In this document: piece by piece, positions 30,070-35,901 of the stretch
Position numbering within the stretch: the first letter of the stretch is position 1
How the letters are laid out: every line of letters begins with the position of its first letter
Origin: Sphingobacterium thalpophilum
GTDB taxonomy: Bacteria > Bacteroidota > Bacteroidia > Sphingobacteriales > Sphingobacteriaceae
Direction of reading: 5' to 3'
NCBI GenBank assembly: GCA_945878525.1
Contig: CAMCTU010000012.1
Span: forward strand, 1-36,019
Length of the DNA stretch: 36,019 nt
Translations under genes and position numbers: made by a program
The notes under the pieces: generated by a model
Database searches by the model: none
Told to the model about the DNA's origin: nothing
What the model saw: the letters and a program-made list of their open reading frames with translations, nothing else

Positions 30070-31227
30070 ATGTCAAAAGACACGCACATTATTCATATCG
30101 ATCAGGATGCATTTTTTGTATCCGTAGAGCTCCTGAAAAACTCTTCCCTGATCGGGAAACCGGTAATTATCGGGGGTGGTTCCGATCGGGGGGTGGTGGC
30201 ATCTTGCAGCTATGAAGCCCGGAAATTCGGAATCCACTCGGCTATGCCATCACGGATGGCCCGGCAGCTTTGTCCGCATGCGATCTTCATACGCGGCAAT
30301 ATGGATGAATACAGCAAGTATTCGCATATCGTAACCGACATCCTGCAGGAGCGGGTTCCTTTGCTTGAAAAGGCTTCTATTGATGAGCATTACATCGATA
30401 TGACCGGAATGGATCGCTTTTATGGCTGCATGAAATTTGCCCATGAACTACGGCTATACGTAATGAAAGAAACCGGACTTCCCCTTTCCTTCGGTCTGTC
30501 GGTCAATAAAACAGTTTCAAAGATCGCCACCAACGAGTGTAAGCCAAACGGAGAGCGGCAGGTTCCGAAAGATGAGGTTCAGCCTTTTCTAAACCCCCTA
30601 TCCATTAAAAAAATTCCCGGCCTGGGGCAGGCAACGTATATCCGGCTGAGCGAAATGGGGGTACGCTACATCTATACTCTGGCTCAGATCCCGCAGGATC
30701 AATTATTCAGAGTATTGGGGAATAATGGCACAAGTCTATGGCAAAAAGCACGTGGTATCGACAATTCGCCAGTACTACCTTACCGTGAGCAAAAATCAAT
30801 CGGAACACAAAGCACTTTCGAGAACGACAGCATTGATACCCAAAAGATCAAACAATTGCTCAGTTCTATGGTCATGGATATCTGCTTTCAGCTCAGATCA
30901 CAGCAAAAACTGGCTGCCTGTATCACCGTAACCATCCGCTATTCCAATTTTGAAACCCATACGCGGCAAGCAAGAATCCCATACACCTCATTGGATTCCT
31001 TCCTGATTGACAAAGCAAAGGAACTTTTTGATACCTTATACAACCGGCGTATGCTAATTCGTCTTGTTGGAGTTAAACTTTCGCAACTGGTAAGCGGGTA
31101 TGAACAAATCAGTCTGTACGGTGCTTCGGAAGAACAGTATAAACTTTATCAGGCAATGGATCGCATCCGGAACAGGTTTGGAGAGAAGGCGGTAAAACTG
31201 GCATCCAGCATTGATATCAATCTCTGA
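30070..31227 (+). CDS. Y-family DNA polymerase (DinB/Pol IV-like)
   Basis: This 385-aa translesion polymerase keeps all catalytic acids: D11 in HIDQDAFFVSVE, and D105-E106 in ASIDEHYIDMTG. The family motif SCSYEARKFGIHSAMP follows. A helix-hairpin-helix region (PGLGQATYIRLSEMGV) and a C-terminal little-finger domain complete the fold. SIDEHY instead of the usual SIDEAY is a minor variant. Because the active site is intact it is not an ImuB. It is three bases upstream of dnaE and the two are clearly one operon. The base composition is visibly richer in GC than flanking genes, which suggests horizontal origin. Confidence 0.9.
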   Translation: MSKDTHIIHIDQDAFFVSVELLKNSSLIGKPVIIGGGSDRGVVASCSYEARKFGIHSAMPSRMARQLCPHAIFIRGNMDEYSKYSHIVTDILQERVPLLEKASIDEHYIDMTGMDRFYGCMKFAHELRLYVMKETGLPLSFGLSVNKTVSKIATNECKPNGERQVPKDEVQPFLNPLSIKKIPGLGQATYIRLSEMGVRYIYTLAQIPQDQLFRVLGNNGTSLWQKARGIDNSPVLPYREQKSIGTQSTFENDSIDTQKIKQLLSSMVMDICFQLRSQQKLAACITVTIRYSNFETHTRQARIPYTSLDSFLIDKAKELFDTLYNRRMLIRLVGVKLSQLVSGYEQISLYGASEEQYKLYQAMDRIRNRFGEKAVKLASSIDINL

Positions 31228-34167: not shown

Positions 34168-34196
34168 GAGGGTGCGGGAGACTGATCAGAGAGAAA

Positions 34197-34324
34197 CCTG
34201 ATCGGTGAAAATACCGACCAGAGGTAGATTTTTCTATTGCTCCTTTGGTAGGTGTTTCCACCGTACCAATTACATGAAGCACCTATAAACAAACCGAATG
34301 GTCAGTGAAAACACCAACCATAGG
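34197..34324. repeat. three REP-like palindromic elements in alternating orientation
   Basis: Element A (34197-34224, minus): CCTGATCGGTG, AAAAT, ACCGACCAGAGG. Element B (34245-34269, plus): TTGGTAGGTG, TTTC, CACCGTACCAA. Element C (34297-34324, minus): AATGGTCAGTG, AAAA, CACCAACCATAGG. Read in one orientation they align with each other and with the two copies at the end of the window, consensus TGGTCGGTG-n4-CACCG(T)ACCA. Each can fold into a hairpin of eight to ten pairs. Confidence 0.7.
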
Positions 34325-34663
34325 GAAATTTTACTTTGTTCAGCTAGCCTGATTTGCCTAAATTTTATATTTTTTGCTTACCGTTTACTAAATAATTACT
34401 ACCGTTTACTCATTTGTTTTTTTTTGCCGGAACCTAATAGTTTCTTAGTTTTTGCTGTTTTTATGAGTAGAACCAGGAAGTCTAATTCATTATATTTTTA
34501 TTCACTCAATCCAACAATTTCTGAATTGTAAATCCAACTTAGCATATATTTAAAGCTACTTTATAAAAACAAAGCAATCTTGACAGTAGCCTAAAATTGA
34601 CCTGGTTTATCACCCTGAAAAGTGCAAAAATTCAAACCAATTATAAAATAAATGACATTTCAA

Positions 34664-34700
34664 AATAATTTACCTCCCATTTTTTAGGAGGTAGATTATT
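34664..34700 (+). terminator. strong stem-loop with T-rich tail
   Basis: AATAATTTACCTCC (34664-34677) pairs with GGAGGTAGATTATT (34687-34700): fourteen pairs with one G-T wobble and a nine-base loop. TATTTTCTTTT follows. It looks like a rho-independent terminator in the plus direction, 500 bases past dnaE, and bounds the lipoprotein island on its left. The stem sequence is shared in part with the hairpin at 35926-35949. Confidence 0.65.
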
Positions 34701-34805
34701 TATTTTCTTTTAAAATAGTACTTACGTTTAATTAATGTTTGGCCAACAGCAAGAGGATACTGAAAATCTTTAGAAGAGTAGGTGTAAGTTTTAAATCAAA
34801 ATTAT

Positions 34806-34853
34806 ATGAAAGTTTTAAATTTAAAGGAAATGGAAGTTGTAGAGGGGGAGTAG
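34806..34853 (+). CDS. 15-codon double-glycine-leader-like reading frame
   Basis: ATG at 34806 opens MKVLNLKEMEVVEGE and stops at TAG (34851-34853). The pattern LNL-x-EME-x-VEG is that of bacteriocin-type double-glycine leaders, which end in GG before the cleavage site. The frame is one base out of register with the lipoprotein frame. At the G5 run (34844-34848) one extra G, or a -1 slip on GGG, gives VEGG followed by VGKYSNSKFLVMALLLTM and the lipoprotein. It may be a real start with slippage or phase variation, a broken leader, or chance. Confidence 0.45.
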   Translation: MKVLNLKEMEVVEGE

Positions 34854-34882
34854 GAAAATATAGTAATTCTAAATTTTTAGTT

Positions 34883-35704
34883 ATGGCACTACTATTAACA
34901 ATGGCTATTACAGGTTTGTATTCTTGTAAGAAAAGTGAATCATCACAGAATGAGTACAGCAATAACTTAAAAAAGAACGCTAAAGAATTGGCATCACTTC
35001 ATAATTCTGGGATGGACTTCATTAGCCTTAAATTCAATAACACTAATAAAATCAATCAAAAGACAGGGCCTTTCCGATTAATGCAATATACTGGCGAAGA
35101 AACAGTCAATGGCGATTTTTTGTTACAAGGTGCATCGGAATTTATTTATGGCTATGATAAGTCTAAAGAGATTGTATATTTAATTCCTGAATTAGCACCT
35201 GCTTTAAACTATTTATTGGATAATGGCACTGAGAGTGTCATAAAGCAACAATTTGCGAATGCGACTCAAGATGCTATATCATTAGCACCGGTCACAGCAC
35301 GTGAAGCAGATTTGGTTGCAGACGTATCGGAAATATTAAGTGAGGCATATTCGATGAATTTAAATCAAATCCAAACCTACAATTATATCCAGAGTGAATT
35401 GGATGGTTTACAGAAAAATATGGATAATATTACCTATATTGAAAATGAAGGTGAGTTAATTAATGGATTAATTGAAATCGGAACCCAGTCCAACATATAT
35501 TGGAGCGGGCATTCATCAAATATCAATATACCTACTGTCAGTTTGATACAAATGGATTTAGTAGGTTATATTTTCGGTTGGGCTCAAGCAGTGAGAGCAG
35601 ATTATAATGCTGGAACGCTTCGCCCGAGTGGTCAGCGGGCGCGTATTGAACAAGGGGTATGGGGCGCTTTAGGGTTTAGTGCAGGTGGTTTAAAATTTCG
35701 CTAA
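34883..35704 (+). CDS. lipoprotein of unknown function
   Basis: From ATG 34883 this is a 273-aa protein with a short lipoprotein signal (MALLLTMAITGLYSC). The frame is open upstream to a TTG at 34739, but that extension is basic and low in Met. The signal would be more normal if it began upstream (KYSNSKFLVMALL), which the out-of-frame leader at 34806 could supply by a one-base shift. The mature part has helical stretches (DAISLAPVTAREADLVADVS and DGLQKNMDNITYIENEGELI) and a glycine-rich end: VGYIFGWAQAVRADYNAG and WGALGFSAGGLKFR, which recalls the Gly-zipper-like ends of some Bacteroidota secreted peptides. I do not recognise a family. Confidence 0.65.
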   Translation: MALLLTMAITGLYSCKKSESSQNEYSNNLKKNAKELASLHNSGMDFISLKFNNTNKINQKTGPFRLMQYTGEETVNGDFLLQGASEFIYGYDKSKEIVYLIPELAPALNYLLDNGTESVIKQQFANATQDAISLAPVTAREADLVADVSEILSEAYSMNLNQIQTYNYIQSELDGLQKNMDNITYIENEGELINGLIEIGTQSNIYWSGHSSNINIPTVSLIQMDLVGYIFGWAQAVRADYNAGTLRPSGQRARIEQGVWGALGFSAGGLKFR

Positions 35705-35709
35705 TAGTT

Positions 35710-35901
35710 ATGAAAGGATTAATATTTTTAAAAGGATGTGCCATTGCCATATTTGGATTTTCCGTGATGAGGTTGCGAGATCCCATTATAGAAAATAAAC
35801 CTTTCAATACAAGTATAGATTGGTTTGATCTATTATTAGTGGCAGGATTTGGAGTTATTTATTATTTTTTCTTAAACAAGAGAAATACTAATAAAACCTG
35901 A
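35710..35901 (+). CDS. 63-aa two-helix membrane protein
   Basis: ATG at 35710 lies five bases after the lipoprotein stop, so the two genes are cotranscribed. Helix 1 (about 3-20, GLIFLKGCAIAIFGFSV) and helix 2 (about 39-55, LLLVAGFGVIYYFFL) flank a polar loop, and the C-terminus is basic (NKRNTNKT). Small proteins of this shape serve as immunity proteins or inner-membrane partners of secreted peptides, but nothing in the sequence proves this. No homologue comes to mind. Confidence 0.6.
   Translation: MKGLIFLKGCAIAIFGFSVMRLRDPIIENKPFNTSIDWFDLLLVAGFGVIYYFFLNKRNTNKT

Follow-up and report, generated by a model that had tools for sequence, protein, structure and literature searches.

The locus analysed here lies near one end of a 36,019-nucleotide stretch of Sphingobacterium thalpophilum DNA (hereafter, the window) and raises a simple question: why does a short frame that looks like the leader of a double-glycine (GG) peptide stop right beside an open lipoprotein frame, one base out of register with it, at a run of five Gs? 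The first-pass annotation had offered programmed frameshifting, phase variation or a broken leader as possible answers. The features on which the argument turns are as follows:

34638..34831, + strand: 5′ cassette common to the window and contig C149 of a related genome, G011 (83% over 197 nt; blastn)
34662..34701, strand not assigned: terminator-like inverted repeat near the cassette start (plus/minus blastn match)
34750..34784, + strand: DUF805b RNA (Rfam RF02914, a cis-regulatory candidate; 35.7 bits, E 1.4e-8; Rfam)
34806..34853, + strand: GG-type leader ORF, MKVLNLKEMEVVEGE and stop (direct reading; spacing and relatives)
34844..34848, + strand: G5 run at the Gly-Gly codon position, where locus L215 has GGT GGA
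34853..34882, + strand: open part of the lipoprotein frame, GKYSNSKFLV, lacking a start codon (homologue alignments)
34883..35704, + strand: lipoprotein ORF, 273 aa from its ATG, with MALLLTMAITGLYSC followed by KK and an all-helical model (ORF reading, structure model)
35710..35901, + strand: downstream partner, a 63-aa membrane protein in which two stretches are likely hydrophobic (ORF reading)

Two frames at a run of Gs

Direct reading bears out the one-base offset at 34844-34848. The leader frame runs from ATG 34806 to GTA GAG GGG GAG TAG, giving MKVLNLKEMEVVEGE with its stop at 34851-34853; it ends VEGE, with neither an in-frame Gly-Gly nor an exported core after it. The lipoprotein frame, open from a TTG at 34739 through to 35704, reads ...CRGGVGKYSNSKFLVMALLLTMAITGLYSCKK at the junction and continues ...GGVGKYSNSKFLVMALLLTMAITGLYSCKK. 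A slip of −1 at the GGG codon (34845-34847) would bring back the exact Gly-Gly and carry reading into the lipoprotein frame, giving EMEVVEGGVGKYSNSKF. The joined reading proposed in the first-pass annotation is thus correct, with its length amended from 288 to 299 residues (14 + 285).

Two readings build on this junction. In the first, some of the products or cells would have leader and lipoprotein united, through programmed −1 frameshifting or through slippage on the G run (phase variation). In the second, the locus encodes a hybrid precursor with the GG leader directly before the lipoprotein signal, the frame being set by slippage or by the allele at the G run; if true, a single protein could be routed either to a C39 transporter or to the lipoprotein pathway. 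A frameshift switch would make the locus new, but it is not what the evidence favours. First, the zero frame, GAG GGG GAG TAG, offers no X XXY YYZ heptamer, and the RNA downstream of the frame break is no more stable than its shuffles (z = 0.16), leaving programmed frameshifting without a slippery site or a stimulator. Second, the run is only five Gs long and is not conserved in the G011 leader; the closest intact leader (L215) lacks it, and runs of at least five Gs occur in 4 of the 40 DUF805b-linked GG motifs. Plus-strand runs of at least five Gs number four in the window, three of them at 30172-30657, so that one run alone carries little meaning. We give the frameshifting and phase-variation reading hardly any credence, and we hold the hybrid precursor to be very unlikely.

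The same annotation had judged the lipoprotein to have a poor start, and here it was right. The signal read from ATG 34883, MALLLTMAITGLYSC, has a lipobox, but at 14 residues and with no Lys or Arg it falls short of a signal peptidase II lipoprotein signal, whereas the other lipoproteins encoded behind DUF805b RNAs have positively charged signals of 19-25 residues. The only charged stretch that could serve the window protein lies upstream of this ATG and has no start codon. A single-sequence scan of the genomes with the lipoprotein gave no match, and an alignment-based scan gave three loci. The four other homologues, those of G005, G042, Chitinophaga sp. sic0106 and G256, have clean starts and charged signals, and none carries a leader (MKTLKFIFPLILLLVIYSCKR, MKTRKTPARFLFALLSILLLTGCAK, MKTSHLNFRLSLLALFCGLLGVIACNK, MRKNYFMFLFYATIFMAVTISCKK). 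Their charged n-region aligns to KYSNSKFLV in the window, which places the lost start approximately, its exact position being uncertain as the termini align freely. Small ORFs resembling the 63-aa one downstream (the similarity is weak) follow the G005 and G042 homologues, and by its position only this ORF might be termed immunity-like.

The leader and the RNA before it

An exact pattern search for the leader core LNLKEMEV(V/I)E across 301 family genomes found it in three places, with none for the reversed control pattern. These are the window, G001 and G154. The latter two copies are functional-looking GG leaders, whose Gly-Gly continues in frame into a short core: the intact peptides are MKTLNLKEMEVIEGG (also given as MKTLNLKEMEVIEGGGMNQRNCG...) in G001, and MKTLNLKEMEVVEGG (also given as MKTLNLKEMEVVEGGDAGVTC...) in G154, which belongs to a different genus. 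The LNLKEMEVVE leader type therefore precedes Gly-Gly sites in two intact peptides. About 1.8 kb beyond the G001 peptide there is a match to C39 peptidase, and the DNA spanning RNA and leader is 75% identical between the window and G154 (89 of 118 columns). A C39 transporter (723 aa, 132 bits for PF03412) is also encoded in the genome of the window itself, beside two GG peptides on another contig (G000:C35) and not adjacent to the leader/lipoprotein locus. Judged by its sequence and relatives, the window leader is a genuine GG-type leader.

The leader ORF is preceded by a DUF805b RNA, whose score narrowly exceeds the gathering cut-off (35.7 against 35.6 bits) with support from its spacing and conserved position; the copy before the GG peptides of the same genome reaches 46.8 bits. 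This RNA was found over the cut-off in 100 of 201 family genomes. We read 110 distinct sites, 109 of them with a main gene, and in 86 of these 109 the main gene starts 15-35 nt past the terminal AGTAGG of the RNA. ATG 34806, at +23, sits in the usual place, while ATG 34883, at +100, is an outlier and the sole main start between +84 and +214. Because ATG 34806 shows the usual DUF805b spacing, the 5′ region of the locus reads as the 5′ end of a GG-peptide gene.

Many of the genes behind DUF805b code for GG-leader peptides, lipoproteins or small signal-peptide proteins, and the spacing pattern suggests a regulon for exported products. The modal spacing across loci L099-L243 is 22 nt past AGTAGG (e.g., L104, L107, L112, L162, L193 and L215), and a multi-spanning membrane protein also occurs behind the RNA (L112, L114 and L127). 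At two C39 loci (L095, 2308-1657 on the minus strand; L096, 4353-4970) about 215-240 nt rather than about 22 nt separate the RNA from the first GG peptide, and the intervening DNA includes a conserved stretch. A 12-codon ORF overlapping the RNA, MFGQQQEDTENL and stop (34736-34774), was considered as a conserved coding ORF and rejected: the RNA explains its conservation and the frame is not kept at other sites. The paper collection searched yielded nothing on DUF805b or fulvocin.

Exchanged and broken 5′ ends

The most telling comparison is with G011. There, on contig C149, the window's 5′ cassette (34638..34831) stands ahead of a different lipoprotein body. That body has an orthologue in the window's own genome (G000:C163), with which it shares 92% DNA identity; past about the first 44 codons of the open frame, the identity is 92-96%. 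The orthologue starts normally and cleanly, with MKKKLTPIFFTLILALVISCNK, and has a DUF805b match of its own upstream, a weaker one at 27.9 bits. The 5′ end of the G011:C149 gene was thus replaced, most simply through recombination. The replacement (L069, 5159-5558, against L248 in G000:C163) sits at an otherwise syntenic locus, and the C-terminus of the G011:C149 protein is rich in Cys and Ala, bacteriocin-like by appearance. Its leader, MKVSHLKEIRSKC and stop, has no Gly-Gly and is broken differently from that of the window; in its lipoprotein frame no ATG, GTG or TTG occurs between the leader stop and the lipobox cysteine. The first 115 nt of the cassette recur on G011:C27, ahead of a GG peptide whose leader carries an in-frame TAG. 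By these alignments, such 5′ ends evidently shift between genes and break. In G001 (contig C19, locus L066, 2172-2470), a leader-like start, MNSLNFKGILTKI, runs into a small membrane protein, and a degenerate version of the window's 5′ region lies upstream; this may be another scar.

The probable explanation for the window is, in our view, a recombination scar, in which the 5′ end of a GG-peptide gene was joined to a lipoprotein gene, the leader has since broken, and the lipoprotein is silent or weakly translated. The inverted repeat, the DUF805b RNA and the leader start would have been joined together before an exported lipoprotein gene, whose own start codon would have been lost. A one-base break at the Gly-Gly codons would then have disrupted the leader frame, yielding the 15-codon ORF. 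The lipoprotein body, still open, would now be either silent, as a young pseudogene, or expressed by weak re-initiation at ATG 34883. The identity of the leader, the DUF805b RNA and its spacing, the clean starts of the homologues and, in G011, the transfer of this very 5′ end to a different lipoprotein gene are established; from them we infer the order of events and the present state of expression. The broken-leader option of the first-pass annotation thus gains support, as the intact relatives of the leader continue in frame into short GG peptides rather than into a lipoprotein. That annotation had held that homologues starting cleanly, together with an unconserved leader, would undo a link between the two frames: the homologues do start cleanly with no leader upstream, but the leader is conserved elsewhere.

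Some observations pull the other way or limit the reading. The exact leader/lipoprotein locus is present in one genome only. The arrangement of leader followed by signal is present in both lineages and so seems older than their divergence, which speaks against a scar. The lipoprotein frame has stayed open for all 273 codons, and the G011 chimera for 221, which argues against genes that died long ago; for the G011 body compared with its orthologue, dN/dS is 0.74, neither clearly relaxed nor clearly constrained.

Two further alternatives bear on the same facts. The break might be an artefact of base calling or assembly, or belong to a minority allele, the true gene being an in-frame fusion of GG leader and lipoprotein from ATG 34806. 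The main-gene spacing of this ATG behind DUF805b, an open lipoprotein frame without a good start, the position of a single-base break inside a G run, and a draft of 242 contigs with the break about 1.2 kb from a contig end would all fit. Against this, no other site among the roughly 110 with DUF805b has such a fusion, and a search of 301 genomes with the joined N-terminus returned nothing convincing: beyond the loci already known, its matches were ordinary lipoprotein signals. The G011 locus, which is related, is likewise broken, and in a different way. We treat such an error or allele as a minor possibility. Palindromic repeat units like tggtcggtgttgtcaccgtacca occupy the contig end (35955-36019), and degenerate copies precede the locus (34170-34330).

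Alternatively, the short ORF might be a functional upstream ORF whose translation and termination steer re-initiation at ATG 34883. It begins at the distance from DUF805b that most main genes keep and stops about 30 nt before this ATG, both of which would suit such a role, and in G011 too the short ORF stops ahead of the lipoprotein signal. However, the G011 frame provides no start codon of any of the three kinds at which to re-initiate, the signal from ATG 34883 is short and uncharged beside those of the other DUF805b lipoproteins, and the genes of the latter lack the short-ORF architecture; we find this account improbable.

Returning to the scar, its wider import lies in the RNA. DUF805b emerges as a little-studied candidate RNA at a fixed distance before genes for GG peptides, lipoproteins and other exported proteins of the family. 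Recombination can exchange the 5′ end seen here from one gene to another, offering a testable link between the RNA and a regulon for export or competition. This 5′ element common to exported-protein genes is a more useful outcome than the frameshift idea.

Comparison with known families and elements

The lipoprotein (34883..35704) gave no named family over the cut-off, a Pfam search assigned none to it or to the 63-aa downstream ORF, and a fold search with its all-helical model (mean pLDDT 76.5) gave no significant match to solved folds. Against the fulvocin C-related bacteriocin family (NF033852) the window protein gives no match, and its homologue L094 a weak one below the cut-off (E 0.003; 18.3 against 35 bits). 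The nearest relatives are the homologues from G005, G042, Chitinophaga sp. sic0106 and G256, which share the body of the protein, including the ENEGEL and C-terminal SGQ-RI motifs, but differ in having their own clean start and charged signal and no leader.

The locus resembles the GG leader peptides of C39 ABC transporters (TIGR01847, TIGR03949; PF10439) in leader sequence and start context, in having intact relatives in frame with short cores, and in sharing its genome with a C39 transporter and GG peptides elsewhere. It departs from them in that its leader frame has neither Gly-Gly nor core peptide, and even the joined peptide scores under the family cut-off (12.9 against 15.7 bits). Finally, the window copy of the DUF805b RNA (RF02914) scores above the gathering threshold and keeps the distance to a start codon seen at most sites, but what follows it is a short, broken ORF rather than a complete gene.
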